Origin: Rhodopirellula islandica | Lineage (GTDB): Bacteria; Planctomycetota; Planctomycetia; Pirellulales; Pirellulaceae | Assembly: GCF_001027925.1 (NCBI RefSeq) | Contig: NZ_LECT01000031.1 | Coordinates: forward strand, 186,001-250,000 | DNA length: 64,000 bases | Direction: 5' to 3' | Shown: positions 12,901 to 51,598 of the stretch, piece by piece | How positions within the stretch are numbered: position 1 is the first letter of the stretch | Layout: each line of letters begins with the position of its first letter | Notes under the pieces: generated by a model | What the model saw: the letters and a program-made list of their open reading frames with translations, nothing else | What the model was told of the DNA's origin: nothing | Databases searched by the model: none | Position numbers and translations under genes: made by a program

Positions 12901-15741
12901 TGGCAGTTCGTGGCCGACCGAGAACGGTACCCAGTCAATTCTGCTGACGGGATCATCCATCAACCCATCCGACTCGAACACATCCAAGTCGCCAACGAAA
13001 TCCCGATGGCGCAAGTTCGGCATCTCGGCCTGGATCCCCGTGTCGCCGACCCGCTGCGGGACACTCGTTGGAATCAAGACGCCAGCCAAGCCCGTGATCG
13101 ATTGAACCGTCGTCGCTGGGAAAGCGAAACGCCAGTGTCAGCGGCCATCCCGATTGAGTCGATCCTGAAAACCTATCAATCCAGCTGGAATGATCTCGAC
13201 CCGATGATGGAAGAGGCTCGTGAATTCCTTCGCAGACTCACACCGAGCTTGTCCGACCAGGCACGTGAGGCAGCGGAAGAAGCCAAGCAACAGAGCGATG
13301 CCATTGAAGAAGACCAGTCCAAACGTCCCGAATCCCCCGAACAGGTCGCGACCGAGGCGGAATCCAAGTTCGACGATTTGAAGGAGCAAGTCAGCGCGAT
13401 CGCCGAACAATTGGCGGACCGAGCCAACAACGCGGACTACTCCCAAGCGGACGACGCGCAGGCTGCCCGCGATGCTGACCAGGCCATCGCAGCGATGGAA
13501 CAACAGACCGAACAAGTTGCCAGCCAGCTCCGTGAAAACCAACCGGAAGAGGCTTCGCAATCACTTGCTGACCTTTCGAAAACATTGGAGACCATTGCGG
13601 ACCACTTCGAAGCCATCGACGAAGGTGAAGATGCCTCCGAGACTCGGGACGCCCTCAATGAACTGACGCCCTCTTCGGAAGCAAACCCGTCCATGGACAA
13701 CCAGTTCGACGCAGCGGAAGCGGTCGCCAAAGCCAACCAGATGACTCCCGAGCAATTGCTCGAACAACTTGAAAAGAAGCTGCCCACCGACCAACCGATG
13801 CAAGAATCGCTGCAGGACATCACGAAGCAGACGGTCCGTGCCGCCGAACAAATGATTCGCGAAGCGGCCAACGAAGAAACGTCGCTGCGTCGCAACTTGG
13901 AACGTTCTGACGCAGAGTTCTCGGAACAGAAACGAATCGCTCGGGACGAGTTGCGTTCCATCTCGGATCGCGCCGACGCCGTCGAGAAACACTTGCTGGC
14001 AATGGCAGAGCAAGCCAGTGGGTGGTCCAACGAAAATGCGACACAGCGAGCAATCGAACAGATTCGCGATGATCTCTCCCAAGCAACGCAAGCCAGCAAA
14101 CAGGCACAGAACGACGCGGCCCTGTTGGACGACCTGCAAGACGCCAACCAATCCCTTCGCGAGGCGGTTCAGGATGCCGCGAAACAAACCGCAGCGATCA
14201 ACGAGAAGGCTCGCCAGATGCAGAAACAATCCCTGCACAACAACGAGCAATCACGTGCCAAAGCGGCTCGACAACTGGAAGCAATGCAACGACGGGGAAA
14301 AAACCAATACCTGCAATCGCTTCAGAACGAGAACCAACAGTGGCACCGCAATGTCGATGAGGCGGGCCGCCGAATCCAACAAGCTCAAAACCAAGAACGC
14401 AATGCTCAGCGAAGCCTCGACCAGGCCAAGCAACAACAGAAAAAGCACCCTGGGGAAGAGTGGGCAGAAAAAAACGTGGCAGACAAACAAGCCCAAGTCG
14501 AAAACGCAGCAACCGCGGCGGCAGCCGCCAAGCAAACTCGCGATTTGGCTCGCGAATCGGAGCGTCAGGCGAAACAACGGTATGAAGATGCTCGCAATCG
14601 AGCGGTTGCCAACCTCGATGCTGCCAATCCCGCTGCTGAATTGCTCTCGCGTGTCACTCAGCAGGCCACCGAAGAACTGCAGGACCTCGCCGAATCACTC
14701 GATTCCAACCAAGAATCGCTCGCGATCGACGAATCGCTCGAACCGCCCGCGTCCTCGAATCAACCCCTTGCCGAGCAACAACAGCGACTTCAACACTCTG
14801 TCGCGATGGCAGCGGAAGAACTTCGCAGAGCAGCACGCCACGAAGCACGACTGGGCAACAGGACTTCCGCTGAAAAACTTGACGAGGTTGCCACGGAAAT
14901 CGAAGCCGTCAGTCAACAACCGATGAACGTAGCCCAAGAATCCTTGCAGTCCGGTGAAGCCAGCCAAGCCAATCAGCAGCTCGCTCAAGCGGCCGAGCAA
15001 CTGCAAGCGAAAGCAGATGCACTCGCCCAACAAGCAAGCAGCGATCCAGCCAACAGAGAAGGCGACTCCTCCACTGCTTCGGATGACGCCCCGTCTTCCT
15101 CGCAGAGTCAAAAACTCGCAAAAACACTGGATGAACTGGACCGAGCCCTCCATTCACCGCCCCCGGATCCGGCAGGCAGTGACGCCCAATCCGATCCCTC
15201 TCAGACATCGCAATCGCAGCAAACGCCTGAGAACCAAACCTCAGATCAATCGGCGGATGGTTCCGCGGGAGAATCCTCCTCCGAGGCGTCAGGCAGCCAG
15301 CAGGCCAATCAGCCCAACTCGCCGGCCAGCCCCGGTCAGCAGCAAACGTCGGGACAGGCATCCTCGACACTGGCGGAAGCGGCTCAGCAAGCCATCCGCA
15401 ACCTGGCTCAACAACGCCAACGACAGTTGCAACAGATTGCACAAGCCGGCGATCCATCCCAGCCATCGGATCAAGATTCCTCGCAACCAAGCAGTCCCCA
15501 AGCGAACCATCCAGCCCGCGGCGAAGGGCAAGCACGTGACAACTCTCTGATCGATGCAAGCGATTGGAACATTGCGGACGGGGATTGGGGCGACCTACGA
15601 GAACGTCAAACCGAAGAGGTCATCCAAGACCGTAAAGTGCGTCTTCCGATGACGTACCGCAAAGCGGTCCAGGCGTACTTCGAAGCTGTTTCCGCCGAAG
15701 CGGCCAAGTCCAGTGAATCCAAACCACGATCGGACAGGTGA
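9928..15741 (+). CDS. Giant membrane-anchored coiled-coil protein (DUF4175-like)
   Basis: 1937 residues, fourth in the operon, ATG 9928 overlapping the previous TGA. Predicted helices lie near residues 46-67, 74-92 and 171-191, then a beta-rich extracytoplasmic region (about 200-520) and a long alpha-helical region. Residues about 1080-1700 are very rich in Glu, Gln, Ala and Lys with heptad-like spacing, so a long coiled coil is likely. About 1700-1880 is Ser/Gln/Pro/Asp-rich and probably disordered. The last 50 residues (DWNIADGDWGDLRERQTEEV...YRKAVQAYFEAVS) are ordered again. The layout resembles DUF4175-like proteins found beside VWA and BatA genes. No catalytic motif is seen. A structural tether or adaptor for the VWA complex is inference. 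Confidence 0.75.
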   Translation: MSELPYGMLGELPRTNHQAPSELLPATRDALRAFARRRATLQACRGVAVGVTMLITAMIALALIDHFVRPSTLPRVLLSLLAYVAAGWAAYRNGIASAFQSSPAEVAGSFEIAQSKLRGQILSAVELSEVDHLNGSPDFRRKLQSHVADQMGDVEVRRLLPWKLIQQALWVLFSLLVAITALGLIPTLELPRRFARVLLPIAPIQRASLTKIHLLQPAPPSAMVAEGDLVGVMVEVDRLGRSDVWLEIRDELGQERQRMVRRSHEALANQTHDQAALDAPRLPTYSANLPVQQTSVEYRILAGDAETLWYTLTPQPRPRATSFVKEYQYPSHTKLPNKTVTENHGDLTAFVGTKVTMRVEFDQPVRDAEMRFSSRGSGFALASVSPEDQQFEITVPISTPGSYRLDATGSDTGLNNPFSPRYTIDPVIDRSPIAAWDESIPRRQIASPAAVLSLVGHLEDDIPMDYAIQQILLEGEGLTETKIDLKDPSSVVRVDLNWDLARFDGRENADAKLPSGSRLKTRLIAVDRAGHRGQSNWIDIFIAQLDFDPDRHHDLLAHQELTQQITPWFEELNQISQGMQNSMKAAIESPDTESFQLNPNLPAQLQQLRVRWESISGFNASADEISPAPDEAAPTSIRKLLASMDDPIRIDQWSRLDSAATFALEQTSLQYKTWQQIGEQFPNDDSVDQRKRLSSSHVGKLGMLTRLTSRSIEFTKAILAIELAMGLSQDMETIQTSAAMLGDADANIPITRLPGQSELLHQQLQQISDLLKSMEPDLPEEVQRHHEQIHRFVDQRTQVISDARDKLRTSQDGNAERPFRETMQQIAEEVKALRVHSLLHGNVANRIAAAMKEFTAESMGWAGQLATLNRIGKQWHDQQRKSKSLAERGDSNELAESKSVERLHQESFQGLRDTILNRLQQAERFEEARSDSQVTASSDLDLIARTLDAITADGFVSPESSDLDEVAFHDQVSKAVMTLDAGNQLHRFEKQWQFVADRERYPVNSADGIIHQPIRLEHIQVANEIPMAQVRHLGLDPRVADPLRDTRWNQDASQARDRLNRRRWESETPVSAAIPIESILKTYQSSWNDLDPMMEEAREFLRRLTPSLSDQAREAAEEAKQQSDAIEEDQSKRPESPEQVATEAESKFDDLKEQVSAIAEQLADRANNADYSQADDAQAARDADQAIAAMEQQTEQVASQLRENQPEEASQSLADLSKTLETIADHFEAIDEGEDASETRDALNELTPSSEANPSMDNQFDAAEAVAKANQMTPEQLLEQLEKKLPTDQPMQESLQDITKQTVRAAEQMIREAANEETSLRRNLERSDAEFSEQKRIARDELRSISDRADAVEKHLLAMAEQASGWSNENATQRAIEQIRDDLSQATQASKQAQNDAALLDDLQDANQSLREAVQDAAKQTAAINEKARQMQKQSLHNNEQSRAKAARQLEAMQRRGKNQYLQSLQNENQQWHRNVDEAGRRIQQAQNQERNAQRSLDQAKQQQKKHPGEEWAEKNVADKQAQVENAATAAAAAKQTRDLARESERQAKQRYEDARNRAVANLDAANPAAELLSRVTQQATEELQDLAESLDSNQESLAIDESLEPPASSNQPLAEQQQRLQHSVAMAAEELRRAARHEARLGNRTSAEKLDEVATEIEAVSQQPMNVAQESLQSGEASQANQQLAQAAEQLQAKADALAQQASSDPANREGDSSTASDDAPSSSQSQKLAKTLDELDRALHSPPPDPAGSDAQSDPSQTSQSQQTPENQTSDQSADGSAGESSSEASGSQQANQPNSPASPGQQQTSGQASSTLAEAAQQAIRNLAQQRQRQLQQIAQAGDPSQPSDQDSSQPSSPQANHPARGEGQARDNSLIDASDWNIADGDWGDLRERQTEEVIQDRKVRLPMTYRKAVQAYFEAVSAEAAKSSESKPRSDR

Positions 15742-16889
15742 TTCCTGTGAAAGTTCCTCAGCACGCCCCACTCGACCGCCGATCCTGGCTCGCCCGAGCC
15801 ATGTTTGGTACCGGCATAACGTGTGCAAGCGCACTTGGGCCGGGGGCAAACCGGTTCCTCACTTCAGCCTCCGCAGAAGAGGACCTGACAGATCTCTATG
15901 TTGATGACGCCATTGACCATTCCGTGAACCAGGGCATCCAGTTCCTGTTGCGATTACAGAAGGAGGACGGATCGATCGCCGATCGCGGCAATGCAACGGC
16001 GATGACATCGCTGGTGATCATGGCGTTCGCATCCATCGGAACGATTCCGGAACCAGCGACTCTCGAGGGTCGCGTGATGAGCCGAGCCATCGAGTTTGTG
16101 TTGCAACCTCGCAATCAAACGCAGGGGTACTTTGGCCATCACGATGGGTCTCGCATGTATGGGCACGGCATCACCACGCTGATGCTGACCGAGATATTGG
16201 GCATGGGGGCAACCATCGACCAAAACGAACGGATTCACAACGCTCTGGTGCAAGCGATCCAGGTCATCCTCCAATCGCAAGCCGTCTCCAAACCACAACG
16301 CCTTCAGGGCGGGTGGCGATACAAACCCGATTCCAGAGACTCCGATCTATCCGTTTCGGTTTGGCAAGTCATGGCCTTGCGATCCGCCAAGAATGATGGC
16401 CTGGACGTCCCCTCCGAAGCGATCGATTTGGCAGTGGAGTACCTGAAAGAATCGTACACGTCGCCATTGGACGAAAACGGACAACCAAGAGAAAAGGCCA
16501 GCGGCTTTGCCTACACTCCGGGAACACATCATCCCGCATTCACAATGACCGCGGCCGGTTTGCTCGCCATGCAAACCTGTGGCCAATACGACTCCCCCTT
16601 GGTTGCTGGGGCGGCAGCGTGGTTGCTCGAACACCCTCCTCGAACAAACGAGCGGTTCTTTTTCTACGGCATGTATTACTACGCTCAGGGCATGCACCAA
16701 ATCGGGGGAGAAGCCGCGACCACAGCAGCCAAAATGGTTCCTGAGCTGTTGCTGCGATTGCAAGCCGACAACGGATCTTGGGTCAGTCACCAGGGCGAAG
16801 AACGCAATGTGGGGGTCGCCTACGCCACCGCCTTGGCCATTCTCAGCCTCAGCGTTCGCTACCATTACTTGCCGATTTATCAAAGATAA
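15738..16889 (+). CDS. Tat-exported prenyltransferase/squalene-cyclase-fold protein
   Basis: 383 residues beginning at GTG 15738 (GTGA overlap with the previous stop); GTG 15747 is also possible. A twin-arginine-type leader is visible (LDRRSWLARAMFGTGITCASA). The mature part has repeated alpha/alpha-toroid units: INQGIQFLLRLQKEDGSIAD-like openings, LQGGWRYKPDSRDSDLSVSV, a middle repeat with AGLLAMQTCG, and LLLRLQADNGSWVSHQG, which is the QW-like repeat pattern of terpene cyclases, prenyltransferases and complement-like proteins. The acidic DxDD motif of squalene-hopene cyclase is not seen, so hopanoid synthesis is unlikely. Last gene of the VWA operon; families of this fold are often paired with VWA/MoxR genes in planctomycetes. 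Role unknown. Confidence 0.82.
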   Translation: MIPVKVPQHAPLDRRSWLARAMFGTGITCASALGPGANRFLTSASAEEDLTDLYVDDAIDHSVNQGIQFLLRLQKEDGSIADRGNATAMTSLVIMAFASIGTIPEPATLEGRVMSRAIEFVLQPRNQTQGYFGHHDGSRMYGHGITTLMLTEILGMGATIDQNERIHNALVQAIQVILQSQAVSKPQRLQGGWRYKPDSRDSDLSVSVWQVMALRSAKNDGLDVPSEAIDLAVEYLKESYTSPLDENGQPREKASGFAYTPGTHHPAFTMTAAGLLAMQTCGQYDSPLVAGAAAWLLEHPPRTNERFFFYGMYYYAQGMHQIGGEAATTAAKMVPELLLRLQADNGSWVSHQGEERNVGVAYATALAILSLSVRYHYLPIYQR

Positions 16890-16968: not shown

Positions 16969-16997
16969 TTGACAACCGGAACGGACCTGGGAATACT
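16969..16997 (+). promoter_or_regulatory. Sigma70-type promoter of the B12 locus
   Basis: TTGACA at 16969-16974 is a perfect -35 box. A 17-bp spacer follows, then AATACT at 16992-16997 as the -10 (4 of 6 bases). Transcription would start near 17004, a few bases before the 5' stem of the cobalamin riboswitch. Spacing and position together make this stronger than a chance match. Confidence 0.7.
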
Positions 16998-17010
16998 ACC
17001 GGCAACGTTG

Positions 17011-17226
17011 CGTGGTGCCTTTGATCCAAGGCTTGGATCCTAGGAAACAGGGAACTTCGGTGAGATTCCGAGACGGCCCGGCCGCTGTATCCGACGCGAA
17101 GTTGCTGACTCAGTGACTTCCAAGCAAACACTCCTCTTGTGCCATTGTCATTGATCGGAATTTTCCGTGACAGACGAGAAGGCGAGCGTTTGCGAGTTTG
17201 CGTCGGGAGTCAGAAGACCTACCACG
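17011..17226 (+). promoter_or_regulatory. Cobalamin (adenosylcobalamin-class) riboswitch
   Basis: The conserved B12-box is visible at about 17050-17090, with GGGAAC, TTCGGTGAGATTCCGAGACGG and CCCGGCCGCTGTA matching the family core (CGGTGAAAxTCCG, then CCCGCxACTGT). The closing stem P1 pairs CGTGGT (17011-17016) with ACCACG (17221-17226), and the 3' signature GAGTCAGAAGACCTACC lies immediately before it. The 216-nt length is normal for the class. It sits just downstream of a consensus-like promoter and upstream of the pseudopilin gene at 17388. Cobamide binding would be expected to lower expression of the downstream operon. The expression platform is not certain; see the leader entry. Confidence 0.93.
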
Positions 17227-17387
17227 AAACGGACGCTAAGTGATCTTCTTGGGCGAGATCGGCGTCGGGGCGAAATCCAATTTCGCTTGGCTGTTTCGTT
17301 GAATTCCAGTCCGAATGATCAAGGCGACTTCCGCGCGGGTATTTCCCGAGCGATGGGTCCGCATTCGAACTGACTCGATCGCTTTGC
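17227..17387 (+). promoter_or_regulatory. Leader between riboswitch and first gene, with hairpin
   Basis: A perfect 7-bp stem with a 3-nt loop (GCGAAAT-CCA-ATTTCGC) lies at 17270-17286, and a shorter one (GATCT...AGATC) lies between the riboswitch and it. No strong U-run follows, so a classical intrinsic terminator is not obvious. The hairpin may still be part of the expression platform, or control may be at translation. No clear ribosome-binding site precedes ATG 17388. Confidence 0.4.
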
Positions 17388-18203
17388 ATGCTCCCGTCTC
17401 CTCGTTCGCATTGCCGCCGCTACCGAAGCGTTTTCGCGATGGGTTTCACCTTGGTGGAATTGCTGGTCGTGATCGCCATCATCGGCGTCTTGGTCGGTTT
17501 GCTTCTGCCCGCCGTCCAGGCCGCTCGTGAAGCCATGCGGCGTGCGTCTTGCCAAAACAATTTGCACCAAATTGGTTTGGCGTTGCACAACTACCATGCC
17601 GCCCACAACAAGTTTCCACCGGGTGCGATTGAGGTGCGACCTCAGTATCCCAATGGAAAACAATTGGCTTGGTCTGCGTTTGTGTTGCCGTTTCTGGAGC
17701 AATCAGGACTGCACGAACAAATCGACTTTCGGCTCGCGTTTGATGCTCCGGAAAATGAAGTCGCCGCGGCAACCGCCTTGCCGACCTTCCTGTGCCCCAG
17801 CACGCCGCGGACCGATGGACAGATCCAAGGTCGCGGGGCGTCCGACTACGGCGGGATCTACGGTCAGCGAATCACGGGCCGAAACGATCCCCCCAACGGG
17901 ATGATGCTGCACGACCGAGCTCTCGCGATGCGCGACATCTTGGACGGCAGTTCGAACACCGTGATGGTCTCGGAGGATGCCGCGTTTCCGGATGGGCAAT
18001 GGATCAACGGACGCAACTTGTTTGATCAAGCCTTCCCGATCAACCAAGCCCCCGCATTTGAAAACGACATGCGTAGCTTTCACGTCGGTGGCGTGATGGT
18101 CCTTCGCGCGGACAGCTCGGTCACATTTTTGACCGAGCAACTCGACCTAGAGATCCTGGCGGCGCTCTGCACGCGAGCCGGACATGACGACGCCACCCTG
18201 TAA
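17388..18203 (+). CDS. DUF1559-family pseudopilin, first gene after B12 riboswitch
   Basis: 271 residues. The N-terminus has a 19-residue leader followed by the type IV prepilin motif (GFTLVELLVVIAIIGVLVGL) and then the DUF1559 hallmark of LLPAVQAAREAMRRASCQNN and LHQIGLALHNYHAAHNKFPP. The leader should be cut between Gly and Phe and the hydrophobic helix used for pseudopilus or membrane insertion. The usual C-terminal H-X9-DG element is present as FHVGGVMVLRADSSV, so the Gly is replaced by Ser. DUF1559 proteins are massively amplified in planctomycetes and their functions are mostly unknown. Being the first gene behind a cobalamin riboswitch, and overlapping the giant-protein gene by 20 bp, suggests a job in cobamide uptake; that is inference. 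ATG 17439 is an alternative but gives a one-residue leader. Confidence 0.88.
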   Translation: MLPSPRSHCRRYRSVFAMGFTLVELLVVIAIIGVLVGLLLPAVQAAREAMRRASCQNNLHQIGLALHNYHAAHNKFPPGAIEVRPQYPNGKQLAWSAFVLPFLEQSGLHEQIDFRLAFDAPENEVAAATALPTFLCPSTPRTDGQIQGRGASDYGGIYGQRITGRNDPPNGMMLHDRALAMRDILDGSSNTVMVSEDAAFPDGQWINGRNLFDQAFPINQAPAFENDMRSFHVGGVMVLRADSSVTFLTEQLDLEILAALCTRAGHDDATL

Positions 18204-21200
18204 CACATCATTGAATCAAACACTCCCTGGATCTGCCGTGAACCCGCTCAAGCCAAGTCGTTTCGCTCGTCGCCGACAGTTGCATCTGACCATCGAACAA
18301 TTGGAATCGCGTCAGCTCCTTGCCGCGGGCCCTTACGCCCCAGCCGCGAACGAAGTGGGCTCATCCGCAATCGATCGCGAATCGCCCGCCATCGTGGGAT
18401 GGGCCACCGGCGTGGAAGACTACACCCCGGGAGCCGCGGTGGATGAAGTTTGGCAGGAATCCTCTCGAGCTCTCGGTCCCGCTGAAGGACAATCCGGCAG
18501 CATCGTCTCGCTAGGACGAGCGGGAACACTCACGCTGACCTTTGAGGATCCCATTCGAGATGGGTTGGGATTCGACTTTGCTGTGTTTGAGAATTCCTTT
18601 TCAGACACATTTCTCGAACTTGGCTACGTGGAAGTCTCTTCCGACGGAGTCAACTTCGTCCGCTTTGAAAGCGATTCTCGCACCGACTCGGCTGTCGCTG
18701 CGTTCGGGTCCATTGATCCAACCAATTTGAACAACTTGGCGGGCAAGTACCGCGGTGGATTTGGCACGCCGTTCGATCTGCAAGAACTTCGCGGCACCGC
18801 CGGACTGGACGTCACCGCCATCACGCACGTTCGGTTGGTCGACATTTTTGGTGACGGCACCTCGTTGGATGGACAAGGCGACCCGATCTACGACCCCACT
18901 CCCACCACCGGCAGTGCGGGACTGGATGTCGATGGCGTCGCCGTGTTGCACGCCAAACAAACGGGTCCCGCGATCATCGATTTCGAAACGCTCGGTTCCG
19001 AACTCGGTGCCTCCACTTTTTCCAACCAAGCCCCCAACGGTTTCGAGCAAGAAGAACTGTCACTGAACAACGACTACAACTCGCTGTACGGAAGCTGGCA
19101 GGGCTGGTCGATTTCCAAGACAACCGATTCCACCACCGCTGATTTTTCCAATCAATACAGTGCCTTCCCCGGTGAGGGCCATGATGGCTCCGACACCTAC
19201 GCCGTCGGCTTCTATTCCGAGTATGCCAGCCCCGAAAACCGCCCCACACTCGAACTGGATCCTGAAGTCGGTTCCCAGTTTGATTCGCTTTGGATCACCA
19301 ACACAACTTACGCCGCACTTTCGATGACCGAAGGTGACCAATTTGCGAAGCAGTTTGGTGGCGACAGCGGCACGGACCCAGACTTCTACGAAGTCGACAT
19401 CCATGGGCTCGACGACGCGGGAACATCCATCGGCACCGTGACCGTCGTGCTTGCCGATTTCCGGTTTGAGAACTCGGAGGATGATTTCATCGTGGATGAA
19501 TGGATCCAGGTCGATCTGTCATCGCTTGAAAGCGCTCAAGCATTGCAGTTCCAAGTGCGATCTTCGGACATCGGCGACTTTGGAATCAACACTCCAACCT
19601 ACTTTGCGGTCGATGACGTGGTCGTCAAACGCCCACAGGTCGCCTTGGATTTCGAAGACACATCGCTCTTGGAATCCGAATCGATGATCGGGCGAGTCTC
19701 ACGGCCTGCTCTCGATAGCAGTTCGCTGATGACCGTCTCGATCAGCAACTCGAACAGTTCGTTGGTGAACCTGCCAACTCAGGTCACCATTGCAGCAGGC
19801 GCTGACTACGCCGAATTCACCGTTTCCACCTCGGACGATGACTTGGCTGGCCCAAATCAAATGGTTGAGTTCACTGCCACAGCTGAACTGCAGGCCCCAC
19901 GAACTCGAGAACTGAGCGTGCTCGATGACGATGCAACGGGACTCGTCTTTTCAAGCAGTTCTTTGCAACAAACAGAAGGGGCCTCCGCCACCACGCTGAC
20001 GCTTCGCCGCAATGACTTCGACATCTCATCCCCGTTGGCCGTTTCTGTTTCTGCCCAGCCCGATTCACGGTTGAACTACCCTGCATCGCTCACCTTTCCA
20101 GCGGGCCAACGCGAAGTTTCGCTGGTCATCTCGATCACGGATGACGAAAAGTTCTCGCCGGCACAGTCTGTTCAATTGGTCGCCACCGCTGAAGGACACG
20201 CTGAATCGGTTGCAACAGTCGAACTCCTGGATGACGACTCGCGTGCGTTGACCGCCACCAACCCAGCGTCTCCCTTGGAAGAATCCAATCCAAGTCAAAC
20301 CGTCACCGCGATCATCCATCGCAATGATGCGTCGCTCGACCAACCCATGACAATCGGGCTCACCAACCCGAATCCAGAGTTGCTGACGATGCCGGCCTCG
20401 ATTGTGATTCCGTCTGGATTTGATTCCGTCGAAGTCACCATTGGTTTGATCGACAACGACGTCGCAAACACCAGTCACACGTTCACGGTGGTCGCATCCA
20501 ATCCGAACGCCGCCACTGCTGAATTCGATGTCACGGTGATCGACGACGAAGCCCCCACCTTCGTGTTGGCTCTGCTTGACTCGCAGGGCGTCGCCTTGAA
20601 CGAAGTGACAGAAGGACAGTCGGTTCGTTTGTCGGTCACTCGCCCCGCATCCAGCGTGTCTGAATCGGTCACTGTCACGCTGGAACAGTCACTCACCGAA
20701 CGCATCGATGGGCCCTTGGAAGTCACAATCCCCGCGGGAGCAACCGCCGCGGAATTGACTTGGCTGATCGAACCCGATGAGACATTGACTGGAAGTCTGG
20801 ACTGGGTGATCGAAGCCAGCACGCCAGGCTTCGAAACCGCACGACTTGAAACCACTGTCTTGGATTCTGATTCGCCAGCACTGACGATCAGCGGGCCAAC
20901 CGAACCACTGCTGGAATCTGATTCCACCTCGATCGGCGATTTCGAATCGTTCGGGCAAACCTTGGTCGCGGATGAATTCAACAACAACGCCGGACAAGCA
21001 GGTGTCTTCGTCGATGGTGAACTGACATTCGGCAATTCGTTTAGCAACGCGTACGGCTTTGACAGTTGGTCTGGGTTCTCGATCAGTCGCGAGTCGGACA
21101 CAACCACCTCCGGTTTCTTCAACCAGTACGCTGCCATCACCGGCGAGGGCGTTCGCGATTCGAACACCTATGCCATCGGATACAACGGTGCCGATGCCAT

Positions 21201-24200
21201 CATCCGGCGTTCCAATGATTCTCAACCGTTCGAATCCATCGCCGTCACCAACACAACTTACGCCGCACTCTCAATGCTCAACGGCGACGCTTTCGCAAAG
21301 CAATTTGGCGGTGAGTCAGGCGATGATCCCGACACATTCGTCTTGACGATCATCGGCAAGAATGAAAATGGCGAGTCGATTGGCGAAGTTGGATTCCATC
21401 TTGCCGACTATCGTTTTGAAGACAACTCGCTGGACTACATCGTTGATGAATGGACCACCGTTGACCTCACACCGATCGGCCAAGCAACCCAACTGCACTT
21501 TGGATTGTCGTCCACTGACGTGGGCCAATTCGGCATGAACACGCCGGGCTACTTCGCACTGGACGACGTCCAGCTTGCCGCTCCAGGCGAAGGGCTGCCG
21601 CAACTCACCCTCCACCGGCAAACACTCGACAACAGCGAACCGTTGGAAGTGAGCTTGGTTGCTGACCGAACCGACATCCGGATCCCTGAAACGATCGTCA
21701 TCCCTTCTGGGCAAGACAGCGTGTCAGTCCCAGTTCGTTTGATCGACAATCTGCTGGCAGAAGACAATCGAGAGGTCGCGATCACTGCCACGGCAAACGG
21801 GTTTGCCCCTCAAGTCATCTCGTTGACCATCGAAGACAACGACACCCAATCGCTCACGGTGACTCACGATTCAAATGAAACGTTGAATGAGTCACAAATC
21901 ATCGTCATCAACGTGGAAGACACAGGCTCGAGCCTCGATGCCGAATCGTTCCACAACGGCTCTGATCTGTCGGGAGCCATCGTTGCCGGGCCACTTGAAT
22001 TCCCGAACGTCTACAACGAGCAGTACGACTTCTGGAGCGGTTGGGCGGCGTCCAACGTGACGGACGTGGCAACGCCCGGCTATTCCAACCAGTACGCTGC
22101 GTATTCCAACCTCTCTGGGGACCAACCCGGTGGTGGCGATTCTTCTGAGACCTTCTTGATCGGTGCAGGCAGCGGCGACTCCGCTCCCACCCTGACTCTG
22201 CCCGAAACAATGTCCGACGCCCGATTCGCGTCCATTTCATTGACGAACAGCACCTACGCGGCACTCTCAATGCAGCAAGGCGACTCCTTCGCGAAGCAGT
22301 TTGGTGGAGAAACCGGTGACGACCCGGACTACTTCTTGCTGACAATCGTCGGCCTGGATTTGTCTGGTGAGACCGTCGGAAGCGTTGACTTCTACCTTGC
22401 TGACTACCGTTTCGAGAACAACTCACTGGACTACATCGTCGGTGAGTGGACCACCATTGACTTGACCTCCTTGGACGGAGCCTCCCAGCTTCGATTTGAC
22501 CTTTCTTCATCGGATGTCGGTGACTTCGGGATGAACACTCCCGCCTATTTCGCGGCAGACAACGTGATCCTGGACCAAGTGTCCGCGGAGCCAACGTCGG
22601 TGGTGATCCATCGAAATGCAGCCGATTTGAGTTCAGCACTACCGCTCACTTTCGAATCGGACGACCCACGTTTCGCGATCGATGCACCGATCGAGATCCC
22701 CGCGGGAGCTGACTCCGTTCGAATCCCGGTCTCGATACTGAACGACCGCACGGTCAACACCGACGGCAGCGCCCGCTGGACAGTGTCCGCAGACGGCCAC
22801 ATTGCCGGTGACGCCAATGTTTCGATCCAAGACGACGAAACCCCAGGCATCGAGTTGCACCGGTTGCTTCAGCCGTTGGAGGTCATCGAGGGCGAAGCAG
22901 CCAATTTGTACGAGGTTCGTTTATCGCAACGCCCTGCATCAAGTGTCACCGTTTCAGTGGAAGCTTTGATTGAATCCATGGATGCAGGTGAGCAACTCTC
23001 CCTCAGTGCAAACACATTGACATTCACCCCCGACAATTGGTCTGAACCTCAAACGATCACCGTCTCGGCCAACGTGGACACCCTGCAGGAACCCAATCAA
23101 ACAGTTCAGCTAACACTGCAAATTGTCAGCGACCTCAGTGACCCCGGCTATGCCTCCGCGGAATCCCAACAGGACTTCTTCACACTCGTCGACTACCAAC
23201 CAACCGACCTGAGTTTGGCGTTGGAAGCGGAGCAATTGGTCCTGCGTGATCTTCGCAATGATTCGGTTTGGACATCCAACAATCGCGACGAACGTTTCGT
23301 CGTTGTCCTGAATGGTCAAGCTCAATCGTTGTCGGTCGCCTCGCTCGCAGAGGCGACCGGCTTGGTCACCATTGAAATGGGTGCCGGTGACGATCACGTC
23401 TTGCTCGACACCACTTGGTTCACATCGATCGACGGCGGAGAAGGATTCGATCGCTTGATCCTTCAACCATCCGACGGGCTCGCAAATGAAAGCGGCGGAT
23501 CCACCATCGACCTGGCGGCCTGGCTACAAAATCGGGTGGTTGGATTTGAAGAACTGGTGCTGGGTGCATCCAATCCTGACGAGCCCCTGACCTATCGGCT
23601 GGACTCGGCTCGCCTGACCACCTTGCTGGGAACCAATGCTCCCACCATCACCAGCATCGGCAGCCAAAATCTAGAGTTGACCGGAAGCTGGCAACTGGGA
23701 GCGCCCCTCGTCGCGGACGGATTGATTCGCCAACGCCTGGTGTCCGAGACGATCGAAGTTCAAGTGATCACCAGCACCCCCTGGCAAAACGCGATTCGCA
23801 GCGAAGATGTCAACGCCAATGGCGAAGTCACTGCGTTGGATGCATTGACCGTCATCAACCGGCTCAACTCAGGCGAGTCCGATGAATTGCTGACGCCCAA
23901 TGACCCCAATGAACTGATTGGCCGTTTCTACGATGTCTCTGGTGATGGGCGGGTTTCCGCCCTGGATGCGTTGCAAGTGATCAATTATCTGAATGGAGAA
24001 ACCGCCTCAGGCGAACCAGTCACCAGCTCCCCTGATGCTCGATCCATTCAGATCTCGCCGGAATCTTCACGCATCGAAGCGATCACGACGAATCAGCTAA
24101 ACCAAGCTCAAGCATCGGCACTGGATGGCCCTCAGACGCTCGCGTCGATCGTTCCAGAATCGTTGAGGCTTTCCGATCCAGGCGGTTTATCCACGGAGCT

Positions 24201-24309
24201 GATTGATCAGCTGTGGAGTGAATCGGGGCGTGAATCCGACGATGATTCCGACTCGTCCGAAAACGGCGAGTGGATCGATTCCCTCGAGTTGCTGGGTGAC
24301 TCCGCATGA
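18184..24309 (+). CDS. Giant secreted protein: LEPR-XLL-like start, surface domain, 3x DUF4465, Calx-beta-like repeats, dockerin
   Basis: 2041 residues from ATG 18184; GTG 18238 is an alternative start. Order: basic N-terminus and LEQ-type export motif (EQLESRQLLAAG, about 38-49); a beta-domain about 50-257 resembling the surface proteins of Bacteroidota B12 loci (SIVSLGRAGTLTLTFEDP, DFAVFENSF, YVEVSSDGVNF); DUF4465 copy 1 about 265-482; Calx-beta-like repeats about 485-900; DUF4465 copy 2 about 917-1131; a repeat; copy 3 about 1245-1463; more Calx-beta-like sequence; and a dockerin type I pair about 1874-1940 (DVNANGEVTALDALTVINRL, DVSGDGRVSALDALQVINYL). Each DUF4465 copy keeps NTTYAALSM or NSTYAALSM, FAKQFGG and DDPD/TDPD blocks. 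The long acidic repeats suggest a Ca-binding extracellular stalk. A role in capturing cobamide at the surface is inferred from riboswitch control and domain content. Confidence 0.85.
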   Translation: MTTPPCNTSLNQTLPGSAVNPLKPSRFARRRQLHLTIEQLESRQLLAAGPYAPAANEVGSSAIDRESPAIVGWATGVEDYTPGAAVDEVWQESSRALGPAEGQSGSIVSLGRAGTLTLTFEDPIRDGLGFDFAVFENSFSDTFLELGYVEVSSDGVNFVRFESDSRTDSAVAAFGSIDPTNLNNLAGKYRGGFGTPFDLQELRGTAGLDVTAITHVRLVDIFGDGTSLDGQGDPIYDPTPTTGSAGLDVDGVAVLHAKQTGPAIIDFETLGSELGASTFSNQAPNGFEQEELSLNNDYNSLYGSWQGWSISKTTDSTTADFSNQYSAFPGEGHDGSDTYAVGFYSEYASPENRPTLELDPEVGSQFDSLWITNTTYAALSMTEGDQFAKQFGGDSGTDPDFYEVDIHGLDDAGTSIGTVTVVLADFRFENSEDDFIVDEWIQVDLSSLESAQALQFQVRSSDIGDFGINTPTYFAVDDVVVKRPQVALDFEDTSLLESESMIGRVSRPALDSSSLMTVSISNSNSSLVNLPTQVTIAAGADYAEFTVSTSDDDLAGPNQMVEFTATAELQAPRTRELSVLDDDATGLVFSSSSLQQTEGASATTLTLRRNDFDISSPLAVSVSAQPDSRLNYPASLTFPAGQREVSLVISITDDEKFSPAQSVQLVATAEGHAESVATVELLDDDSRALTATNPASPLEESNPSQTVTAIIHRNDASLDQPMTIGLTNPNPELLTMPASIVIPSGFDSVEVTIGLIDNDVANTSHTFTVVASNPNAATAEFDVTVIDDEAPTFVLALLDSQGVALNEVTEGQSVRLSVTRPASSVSESVTVTLEQSLTERIDGPLEVTIPAGATAAELTWLIEPDETLTGSLDWVIEASTPGFETARLETTVLDSDSPALTISGPTEPLLESDSTSIGDFESFGQTLVADEFNNNAGQAGVFVDGELTFGNSFSNAYGFDSWSGFSISRESDTTTSGFFNQYAAITGEGVRDSNTYAIGYNGADAIIRRSNDSQPFESIAVTNTTYAALSMLNGDAFAKQFGGESGDDPDTFVLTIIGKNENGESIGEVGFHLADYRFEDNSLDYIVDEWTTVDLTPIGQATQLHFGLSSTDVGQFGMNTPGYFALDDVQLAAPGEGLPQLTLHRQTLDNSEPLEVSLVADRTDIRIPETIVIPSGQDSVSVPVRLIDNLLAEDNREVAITATANGFAPQVISLTIEDNDTQSLTVTHDSNETLNESQIIVINVEDTGSSLDAESFHNGSDLSGAIVAGPLEFPNVYNEQYDFWSGWAASNVTDVATPGYSNQYAAYSNLSGDQPGGGDSSETFLIGAGSGDSAPTLTLPETMSDARFASISLTNSTYAALSMQQGDSFAKQFGGETGDDPDYFLLTIVGLDLSGETVGSVDFYLADYRFENNSLDYIVGEWTTIDLTSLDGASQLRFDLSSSDVGDFGMNTPAYFAADNVILDQVSAEPTSVVIHRNAADLSSALPLTFESDDPRFAIDAPIEIPAGADSVRIPVSILNDRTVNTDGSARWTVSADGHIAGDANVSIQDDETPGIELHRLLQPLEVIEGEAANLYEVRLSQRPASSVTVSVEALIESMDAGEQLSLSANTLTFTPDNWSEPQTITVSANVDTLQEPNQTVQLTLQIVSDLSDPGYASAESQQDFFTLVDYQPTDLSLALEAEQLVLRDLRNDSVWTSNNRDERFVVVLNGQAQSLSVASLAEATGLVTIEMGAGDDHVLLDTTWFTSIDGGEGFDRLILQPSDGLANESGGSTIDLAAWLQNRVVGFEELVLGASNPDEPLTYRLDSARLTTLLGTNAPTITSIGSQNLELTGSWQLGAPLVADGLIRQRLVSETIEVQVITSTPWQNAIRSEDVNANGEVTALDALTVINRLNSGESDELLTPNDPNELIGRFYDVSGDGRVSALDALQVINYLNGETASGEPVTSSPDARSIQISPESSRIEAITTNQLNQAQASALDGPQTLASIVPESLRLSDPGGLSTELIDQLWSESGRESDDDSDSSENGEWIDSLELLGDSA

Positions 24310-24524
24310 TCCCACCCACCGACACGCCCAAGTCGCCCTGCGTTGGGGTTTGCCAAGTGAATCACCAGCAAATGTGCATCGGATGTTCACGAACTTTGGG
24401 CGAGATTGGCAAATGGTCGATTGCATCCCCAGCAGAAAAACGTTCCATTCTTGAGTTGGTACGCCAGCGGCGGGCCGCTCAAGCTCCACCGGTCCAAACA
24501 GCGCCAGGCGAGACCAACTCGTGA
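24306..24524 (+). CDS. DUF1289-family small cysteine protein
   Basis: 72 residues; ATG 24306 overlaps the giant gene's stop (ATGA). Four cysteines form a CX3C...CX2C pattern (C12, C16, C24, C27) inside SPCVGVC and MCIGCSRTLGEIGKW, then SPAEKRSILELVRQRR, which is the DUF1289 signature. Such a pattern suggests metal binding (Zn or Fe-S). Biochemistry of the family is unknown to me. Its tight coupling to the B12-riboswitch operon is notable: it may be a co-transcribed passenger, or a cytosolic partner of uptake or B12 handling. Confidence 0.88.
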   Translation: MIPPTDTPKSPCVGVCQVNHQQMCIGCSRTLGEIGKWSIASPAEKRSILELVRQRRAAQAPPVQTAPGETNS

Positions 24525-24568
24525 CGTCTCGTCATCCGACGAACATGGCCTGTTGGCCCCTCCTAGTT

Positions 24569-24604
24569 TCCGTACCTTTGAATTTCCCGCCGTACCTTTG
24601 ATTT
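24569..24604 (+). repeat. Short direct repeat (CCGTACCTTTGA x2)
   Basis: Two near-identical 16-base units, CCGTACCTTTGAATTT at 24569-24584 and CCGTACCTTTGATTTT at 24589-24604, are separated by 4 bases. They lie just upstream of the DUF6580 gene. A regulatory-protein site or a small duplication are both possible. Confidence 0.5.
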
Positions 24605-24622
24605 TTTTGATTGAGTGTTCCT

Positions 24623-25180
24623 GTGAATCCAAGTAACAATCTGCAACGTTTTGCAATCGTTTTGGCCATGATCGGCATCGCTGTCGCTTCCCGCCTGCTC
24701 CCGCACCCACCGAACTTCACACCTTTGGCAGCGATGTGCTTGTTTGCCGGTGCGATGACGGTCTCTCCCCGAATCATGGCCGTGTCGGTGATCATCGCGA
24801 TGTTGATCAGCGATGCTGTGCTCGGATTCCATTCTTTGATGCCAGTTGTCTACGGTTGCCTGTTGGCGAACTTTGTCATCGGTCGCAAACTGGTCGGTGC
24901 CAACACCAGCGCGCTCACGGTCTTCGCAGGTTCGCTTGCCGGCAGCGTGCTGTTTTTCCTGGCCACCAACTTTGCCGTCTGGGTCGCGTTCTACCCTTCG
25001 ACTTGGACCGGACTGACCGCATGCTTCGCAGCAGCCGCCCCATTCTTCCAGTACACCTTGGCGGGTGATTTGGTTTACAGCGGTTTGTTCTTCGGCGTCT
25101 ACGCACTGGCAACCAGTGGCGTCGTCTCAACACACGGCAATCTTCAACGAGCTACAGTTCCTGCACGAGCTGGCGAATAG
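24623..25180 (+). CDS. DUF6580-family putative transport membrane protein
   Basis: About 185 residues from GTG 24623; a TTG four codons earlier is also in frame. At least five hydrophobic helices are visible (FAIVLAMIGIAVASRLL, SPRIMAVSVIIAMLISDAVLG, LTVFAGSLAGSVLFFLATNF, LVYSGLFFGVYALAT among them). The PHPPNFTPLAAMCLFAGA segment and the GDLVYSGLFFG end are the DUF6580 hallmarks; the family resembles small integral S-component-like transporters. Position in a B12-riboswitch operon makes a cobamide, cobinamide or cobalt substrate plausible. Its 3' end overlaps the convergent epimerase gene by 29 bp. No ATPase or TonB receptor is nearby, so any energising partner must be elsewhere. Confidence 0.85.
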   Translation: MNPSNNLQRFAIVLAMIGIAVASRLLPHPPNFTPLAAMCLFAGAMTVSPRIMAVSVIIAMLISDAVLGFHSLMPVVYGCLLANFVIGRKLVGANTSALTVFAGSLAGSVLFFLATNFAVWVAFYPSTWTGLTACFAAAAPFFQYTLAGDLVYSGLFFGVYALATSGVVSTHGNLQRATVPARAGE

Positions 25181-26036
25181 TCTCGTCCAGTCTGGATAGC
25201 CCGCCAAATTGAAAGCCAAGTGACTCCAGCTTGGCCGATGACATTTCTCGGCCAGAAGATTTGGGATCACCGGTGAGCATCGCTTTCGAGTTCGTGATTT
25301 CCATCACGCGGCTGGCAATTTCATGCTCCGAGAAAAATCGATCGCAGCAATTGTAGGTTTCTCCCGCGATCGGTGATTCTGTTTCGAGCAAGGTTGCAAT
25401 CGCAGCGGCAACGTCTTTGACATGCACGACTTTTCCGCCGCCATCCGCTGGAACGGACTCCCCACGAGCGACAGCTCGCATCAAGTCAAACCACTTCGAA
25501 TTCTCTAGCGGAGTGTCGACACCGTAGATGGCGACCGGGCGAAGGCTGGCGGCGTTGATTCGGCCTGAACTGCCGTACGCGTGCACCATCGTTTCCATCG
25601 ATGCTTTGCACGCGCCGTACAGAGATCCGGGCCGCAGCGGATGCTGTTCATCCAGTGCAATGCCCTCCACGACGTGCTGGTGAACGGCCCCCGACGAAAC
25701 AAAGACGAACCGCCCAACTGAATGGGCGGCGGCTGTTTCGAGCAGAGCAATCGATCCCATCAAATTGGTCTGGATGTAGTCCAGCGGCTGCTGCGGGACA
25801 TCCATGAAGCCGGCCCCTTCACGCGCCAAAGCGGTGTGGACGACCGCATCGCAGCCGGCGACCAAGCCTTCCACCGAGCCTCGATCGTCCAGCTCACCAC
25901 GGACCCAATCGACCCCCTCTAACTCTGGGGGAGCCGCTTTCCGGGTCCATCCGCGAACGGAGTGGCCGCCCTGCAACAGATTCGAAACGACGTGTCGACC
26001 CAAAAAACCGGTTGCACCGGTGACAGCAACGAGCAT
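25152..26036 (-). CDS. NAD-dependent epimerase/dehydratase (extended SDR)
   Basis: 294 residues read leftward from ATG 26036. The N-terminal Rossmann motif TGATGFLG (residues 6-13) follows the extended SDR consensus; the catalytic set is SS at 114-115 and YGACK with Tyr140 and Lys144. The RPVAIYGVDTP segment is typical of sugar-nucleotide epimerases and reductases. Substrate is not evident; candidates are nucleotide-sugars or other carbonyl compounds. The stop lies inside the DUF6580 gene on the other strand (29-bp overlap), so the two transcripts are convergent. No operon partner is visible on its side. Confidence 0.87.
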   Translation of the reverse strand: MLVAVTGATGFLGRHVVSNLLQGGHSVRGWTRKAAPPELEGVDWVRGELDDRGSVEGLVAGCDAVVHTALAREGAGFMDVPQQPLDYIQTNLMGSIALLETAAAHSVGRFVFVSSGAVHQHVVEGIALDEQHPLRPGSLYGACKASMETMVHAYGSSGRINAASLRPVAIYGVDTPLENSKWFDLMRAVARGESVPADGGGKVVHVKDVAAAIATLLETESPIAGETYNCCDRFFSEHEIASRVMEITNSKAMLTGDPKSSGREMSSAKLESLGFQFGGLSRLDETIRQLVQEL

Positions 26037-51503: not shown

Positions 51504-51598
51504 GGTGGAGGCAACCCTCACACAAAGTTACACCGCTTATGGCTGCTCCAGTTAAGGCCTGACCAGGTTCACGACTCACAGTCGCAAGGGTCGCCACC
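51504..51598 (-). ncRNA. ffs: Signal recognition particle RNA (small bacterial 4.5S type)
   Basis: Read leftward, the core GAACCTGGTCAGGCC, then TTAACT, then GGAGCAGCC fits the SRP Alu-free small form: internal loop elements GGTCAGG and AGCAGCC are conserved. The ends pair: 5' GGTGG CGACCCT with 3' AGGGTTG...CCACC. The apical loop is UUAACU (a UAAC tetraloop closed by a U-U if read as URRC) rather than GGAA. It lies just upstream of dnaX, a common place for ffs. Confidence 0.88.

Follow-up and report, generated by a model that had tools for sequence, protein, structure and literature searches.

What does a cobalamin riboswitch control in a planctomycete when no canonical vitamin B12 uptake gene follows it? 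The question is raised by a 64,000-nucleotide stretch of Rhodopirellula islandica (contig NZ_LECT01000031.1; the whole stretch is called the window here), in which such a riboswitch precedes four co-directional genes encoding a DUF1559 pseudopilin, a giant secreted protein with DUF4465 domains, a member of the DUF1289 family and a membrane protein of the DUF6580 family. We regard cobamide scavenging as the near-certain role of this operon, and consider it probable that it works here without BtuB, by surface capture, with the pseudopilin in BtuB's place and DUF6580 as the importer.

Riboswitch, operon and binding protein

The sequence-only reading of this DNA had proposed the riboswitch and suggested an Infernal search against Rfam. 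That search bears it out: the covariance model RF00174 is covered whole (model positions 1–189) at 16996..17240, on the plus strand like all operon features, with 64.0 bits (E 1.7e-13) against a gathering score of 31.5. The promoter, which had been called good, is better described as promoter-like. A sigma-70-like TTGACA-17-AATACT agreeing with consensus at 10 of 12 positions does lie at 16969..16997, its support being that consensus match, with one site seen where shuffled sequence leads us to expect 0.3. A scan saw no terminator-like site between the riboswitch and the first gene. The tight spacing of the four genes also holds: the pilin gene (17388..18203) overlaps the giant gene (18184..24309) by 20 nucleotides, the giant gene overlaps the DUF1289 gene (24306..24524) by 4, and about 98 nucleotides separate the latter from the DUF6580 gene (24623..25180), taking the GTG at 24623 as its most likely start (an in-frame TTG lies upstream at 24611).

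Pfam matches were obtained for all the gene content named in that reading, including the three DUF4465 domains, the dockerin and the four-Cys protein; what it missed were a BtuH-like N-terminal domain in the giant protein, the predicted S-component fold of DUF6580, and the TonB receptor that occupies the pilin's operon position in other phyla. The giant protein has 2041 residues. Its DUF4465 domains (PF14717; 544 bits together) lie at 19087..19620 (198.2 bits; motifs TNTTYAALSM and NTPTYF; PDB 9hmu, E 7.5e-20), 21058..21570 (187.9 bits; TNTTYAALSM and NTPGYF; 9hmu, E 9.8e-21) and 22021..22566 (189.3 bits; TNSTYAALSM and NTPAYF; 9fct, which is BtuJ1, E 1.6e-19). A Dockerin_1 domain follows at 23803..23994 (residues 1874–1937; 57.1 bits), and two matches fall just under their cut-offs: a Planc_extracel N-terminal motif at 18277..18333 (residues 32–50; 24.3 bits, cut-off 25.5) and Calx-beta (26.1 bits).

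According to the available part of PMC13398666 (2026), eight divergent DUF4465 proteins bind B12, one of them from the planctomycete Mucisphaera, and two tyrosines are singled out, one in the HI-loop NTPAYF and one in the DE-helix. Both signature motifs are kept in all three window domains, and loose patterns for the two tyrosine sites match 78 and 86 of 95 domains from the fetched Pirellulaceae loci. The earlier statement that DUF4465 proteins recur in Bacteroidota B12 loci was right, as BtuJ1 and BtuJ2 attest. By analogy with these relatives, the giant protein would catch cobamides with its three DUF4465 domains.

Its N-terminal domain (18316..18963), which matches no Pfam family and gave no match in a PDB sequence search on its own, is predicted to share the fold of the C-terminal domain of BtuH2; its top profile match, a weak one, is the BtuG1 H-domain (E 0.13). 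This domain probably catches cobamides too. It has at least 6349 relatives, some named PEP-CTERM proteins, and the operon points to a B12 role for the domain.

A dedicated pilin at the position of a TonB receptor

Is the arrangement peculiar to this genome? Among 149 Pirellulaceae genomes, DUF4465 occurs in 59, the cobalamin riboswitch in 123 and DUF6580 in 128. The 99 DUF4465 matches correspond to 66 open frames, and for 46 of these the matches listed include a same-strand riboswitch at most 8 kb upstream; once the remaining loci had been scanned with Rfam, 63 of the 66 stood behind one, if both frames of a gene split in genome G289 are counted. Two of the three exceptions (L147 and L149) are cut by contig ends, and L150 is a true miss. 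All four DUF4465 matches of the window's own genome lie behind its two riboswitches. Counts of riboswitch linkage elsewhere in this text are lower bounds, as they draw on the riboswitch, plug and FecCD matches listed.

We examined 63 of the 65 DUF4465 loci for neighbours on the same strand no more than 3 kb away: 52 have a pseudopilin, 23 have DUF1289 and 22 have the N-terminal domain. Gene orders differ between loci, and the set can be split. The proposal of cobamide capture is upheld by this riboswitch linkage, by the recurrent pilin partner and by the published B12 binding of DUF4465 proteins. The planctomycete survey suggested along with the proposal, made here in Pirellulaceae, came out in favour of DUF4465 beside riboswitches and mostly negative for DUF6580. 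In the literature searched, outside which most subscription papers lie, we found no paper joining planctomycetes and the cobalamin riboswitch. B12 binding by DUF4465 is already published; the same literature yielded nothing on the link to a pilin.

The pilin itself matches PF07596 (DUF1559) with 224.4 bits and N_methyl with 21.6 bits, barely above the cut-off of 21.2. About 68 open frames of the genome match DUF1559 (70 matches), and the accessible text of PMC10632474 gives 68 paralogues in P. limnophila and describes the family's function as unknown. We built a tree from 44 of the 52 operon pilins (the others gave no match to the trimming motif) and 30 of the 70 DUF1559 matches of the window's genome. 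In it, 43 of the 44 operon pilins, the window's included, form one clade apart from the 30 paralogues (support 100/99); the single outlier, from L287, lies about 1.4 kb beyond the DUF4465 gene there. The operon pilin is thus a member of a dedicated clade and not an arbitrary DUF1559 paralogue.

What stands in its place elsewhere emerges from loci of the N-terminal domain, of which we took the best 80 of 530, from many phyla, finding pilins by motif. A TonB receptor lies nearby in 52, a pilin in 18, neither in 10 (one of these, L211, has a pilin-like frame by model search) and both in none (Fisher p 3.7e-11, kinship ignored). Grouped by record title, 18 planctomycete loci comprise 16 with a pilin, none with TonB and 2 with neither; 15 verrucomicrobial or kiritimatiellal loci comprise 2, 9 and 4; and 47 loci of other groups comprise 0, 43 and 4. 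The exclusivity is therefore partly a matter of lineage, and the verrucomicrobial and kiritimatiellal group is where both solutions occur. In pilin loci, the pilin holds the operon position of BtuB elsewhere. Seven pilin loci fall outside the Rhodopirellula- or Rubripirellula-like giant-protein type, and a riboswitch was found in six (L205, L223, L225, L233, L237 and L258) and not in L230; these counts use Rfam in place of a riboswitch pattern of our own, which matched 18 of the 80 loci, 40 of 44 known riboswitches and no reversed sequences.

Within Pirellulaceae, a plug domain lies 215–443 nucleotides behind a riboswitch in at least 34 genomes (pairs picked by eye as sharing a contig); DUF4465 occurs in 2 of those, versus 57 of the 115 others (p 1.8e-6, from lower bounds and with kinship ignored).

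Several of these loci hold further features. Five pilins outside DUF1559 (below cut-off), with an HFRHxGxANVxWxDGH-like stretch, come immediately after B12-binding genes in members of the Planctomycetes, the Kiritimatiellae and the Verrucomicrobia (L205:6732-7532, L223:6812-7660, L230:1886-2752, L237:4652-5473 and L258:6693-7466). At L223:4808-7660 and L225:5914-8734, a pilin and an N-terminal-type domain are encoded in one operon with a propeller-like gene that has weak SGL or Lactonase matches; this gene is possibly BtuG-like, and a PDB sequence search with the L225 copy gave nothing at E values up to 1. In the deltaproteobacterial L206:1935-5404 and L212:1156-6738, cobalamin riboswitches and then a c-di-GMP-I-GGC riboswitch precede B12-binding surface genes, which may respond to both B12 and a cyclic dinucleotide.

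The DUF1289 four-Cys protein (66.6 bits) appears to be a small partner of the pilin, to which gene fusion ties it: in 10 of the 63 loci (L112, L124, L125, L151, L157, L160, L162, L277, L282 and L285) one open frame encodes DUF1289 followed by the pilin's FTLVELL motif (one such protein was examined with Pfam), which places the four-Cys domain on the leader side of the pilin. Prepilin cleavage would leave a fused DUF1289 in the cytoplasm, and our guess is that it serves as a cytoplasmic helper of pilin assembly. No B12 link was visible from the listings of literature on DUF1289.

Missing import genes and the DUF6580 protein

How would captured cobamide enter the cell? In the genome that contains the window (completeness 99.94%, contamination 4.27%) there is no match to the TonB plug domain (PF07715), to CbiC or to CbiQ (PF02361), the T component of a classical energy-coupling factor (ECF) transporter. 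No convincing BtuC-type permease was found in it either: its two FecCD matches are weak (best E 9.0e-5), versus E 1e-80 or better in 25 relatives. The single-contig relative G327 likewise lacks plug, CbiQ and CbiC and has weak FecCD matches alone. CbiC occurs in 2 of the 149 genomes, so most of the family probably relies on cobamides from outside. A requirement for B12 in some planctomycetes is mentioned in the part of PMC3538630 that was available. Secretin domains are present in six open frames of the window's genome.

A candidate importer is the DUF6580 protein (160.1 bits), for which the operon points to a B12 role. It is predicted to have an ECF S-component fold, with BtuM, a solitary S-component-like B12 importer, ranking first. 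Membership of the BtuM family was considered and rejected, as there is no profile relation (hhalign probability 0.6%, E 0.1). One cysteine of DUF6580, Cys138, is invariant; no alignment sets it against the cobalt-binding Cys80 of BtuM. PDB searches gave no match with the sequence alone and nothing better than E 1.4 with the profile, and the literature searched yielded no paper on the family. Two distributions speak for import. DUF6580 is missing in 12 of the 25 genomes with strong FecCD versus 9 of the 124 others, a comparison that uses all 134 DUF6580 matches. Genomes whose FecCD is linked to a riboswitch, 12 in number, were picked by eye. In L129–L131 (G289, G202 and G216), a riboswitch is followed by DUF1289 and DUF6580 alone, without DUF4465.

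Around the operon, an epimerase-like gene (25152-26036) lies convergent directly behind it, and a similar gene stands beside DUF4465 or DUF6580 in L126, L127, L146, L148 and L150. The gene ahead of the riboswitch (15738-16889) resembles squalene cyclases with a score below cut-off, and a bacterial small signal recognition particle RNA lies at 51504-51598 on the minus strand (43 bits).

Proposed mechanism, rival explanations and known systems

From these elements we propose the following sequence of events. When B12 is scarce, the riboswitch would permit expression, as known riboswitches do. The giant secreted protein would catch cobamides through its BtuJ-type domains and probably through the BtuH-like domain. 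The pseudopilin would most likely form or cap a fibre of the pilus type, to which the binding protein is attached and which brings the captured cobamide through a secretin-type opening into the periplasm. DUF6580 would then do the work of BtuCD and move it across the inner membrane. The step we infer is transport of B12 over the outer membrane by a pilus; a fibre route is made plausible by pili-like fibres on planctomycete crateriform structures, which bind dextran, some of it seemingly internalised, according to the available text of PMC5394234. As far as titles and the starts of abstracts show, the literature searched holds no report of B12 uptake by pili or of a link between pilins and B12.

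Several observations weigh against this proposal. The second riboswitch locus of the same genome, L106, has a lone DUF4465 without a nearby pilin, and it is one of 11 such loci among the 63. Of the 59 genomes with DUF4465, 31 contain a plug domain somewhere, as do 11 of the 18 that encode the multi-domain protein, so it is not safe to assume uptake without TonB for every carrier. Two genomes, G311 and G337, combine DUF4465 with a riboswitch-linked plug. DUF6580 lies in the operon in just 9 of the 63 DUF4465 loci, is riboswitch-linked in at least 14 of 128 genomes and had a riboswitch at none of 10 other family loci scanned, and the scores it gives with other S-components come within roughly one Z unit of that with BtuM. 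All association tests ignore kinship.

In the chief rival, the pilin does no more than export or anchor: a pseudopilus like that of type II secretion would display the giant protein, cobamide would enter through an unlinked porin or receptor, and DUF6580 would still import it. Pseudopilins are established parts of secretion machines and the genome does encode secretin domains; the plug domains of DUF4465 genomes and the loci that manage without a nearby pilin fit this explanation as well. We nevertheless judge it unlikely, while taking it seriously, because none of the 47 loci outside Planctomycetes, Verrucomicrobia and Kiritimatiellae has a pilin close to these binding proteins, several of which carry PEP-CTERM signals, and because the pilin is absent from the 80 loci wherever a TonB receptor is present.

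It is very improbable that the operon serves surface storage or sequestration of B12, be it for competition or on vesicles, with import left to other genes and with the pilin and DUF6580 regulated together but unrelated in function. BtuJ proteins load vesicles in Bacteroides thetaiotaomicron (PMC12751083, in its available part), DUF6580 mostly lacks a riboswitch link, and the lone DUF4465 of L106 would suit storage. The genome, however, offers neither a BtuB-type nor a convincing BtuC-type gene to do the importing, genomes with strong FecCD more often lack DUF6580, and L129–L131 keep riboswitch, DUF1289 and DUF6580 together without any DUF4465. Chance neighbourhood, in which the riboswitch would control the first gene only and the others would be unrelated, can be rejected: with so many DUF1559 frames in the genome an accidental pilin neighbour is conceivable, but the genes overlap and the same families recur in varied orders and splits.

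If uptake by pseudopilus, surface capture and DUF6580 is correct, B12 can be acquired without a TonB receptor and probably without a BtuCDF importer. The DUF1559 pilin would gain its first concrete partners, a regulator and a likely substrate, and B12 would offer a testable single-vitamin case for the entry of large nutrients via planctomycete fibres or crateriform structures. More tentatively, and leaning somewhat against it, we raise the wider possibility that Planctomycetes and some Verrucomicrobia and Kiritimatiellae need no BtuB to carry B12 over the outer membrane and use instead a dedicated riboswitch-led pseudopilus with multi-site binders, and that the large planctomycete pilin families are substrate-specific uptake pilins.

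Compared with known systems, the operon combines familiar parts in an unfamiliar setting. With other planctomycete DUF1559 pseudopilins its pilin shares PF07596 and N_methyl, whereas the operon clade is tied to B12 operons. As described in the available portions of PMC8941943, PMC10404256, PMC12751083 and PMC13398666, the cobamide loci of B. thetaiotaomicron (BtuB, BtuG, BtuH, BtuJ, BtuK and BtuL) share with it cobalamin riboswitches, DUF4465 (BtuJ) and a BtuH-type domain; they contain BtuB, ATP-binding cassette importer genes and small lipoproteins, in contrast to the single 2041-residue protein, pseudopilin and DUF6580 of the window. The proteobacterial riboswitch operons L216, L228, L208 and L241 share the N-terminal-type domain and DUF4465, fused in L208, but have a TonB receptor in the pilin's place, and neither DUF1289 nor DUF6580 was seen in those loci. 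The crateriform fibres of PMC5394234, in the text available, provide a fibre-bound nutrient within the same phylum, the substrate there being a polysaccharide.

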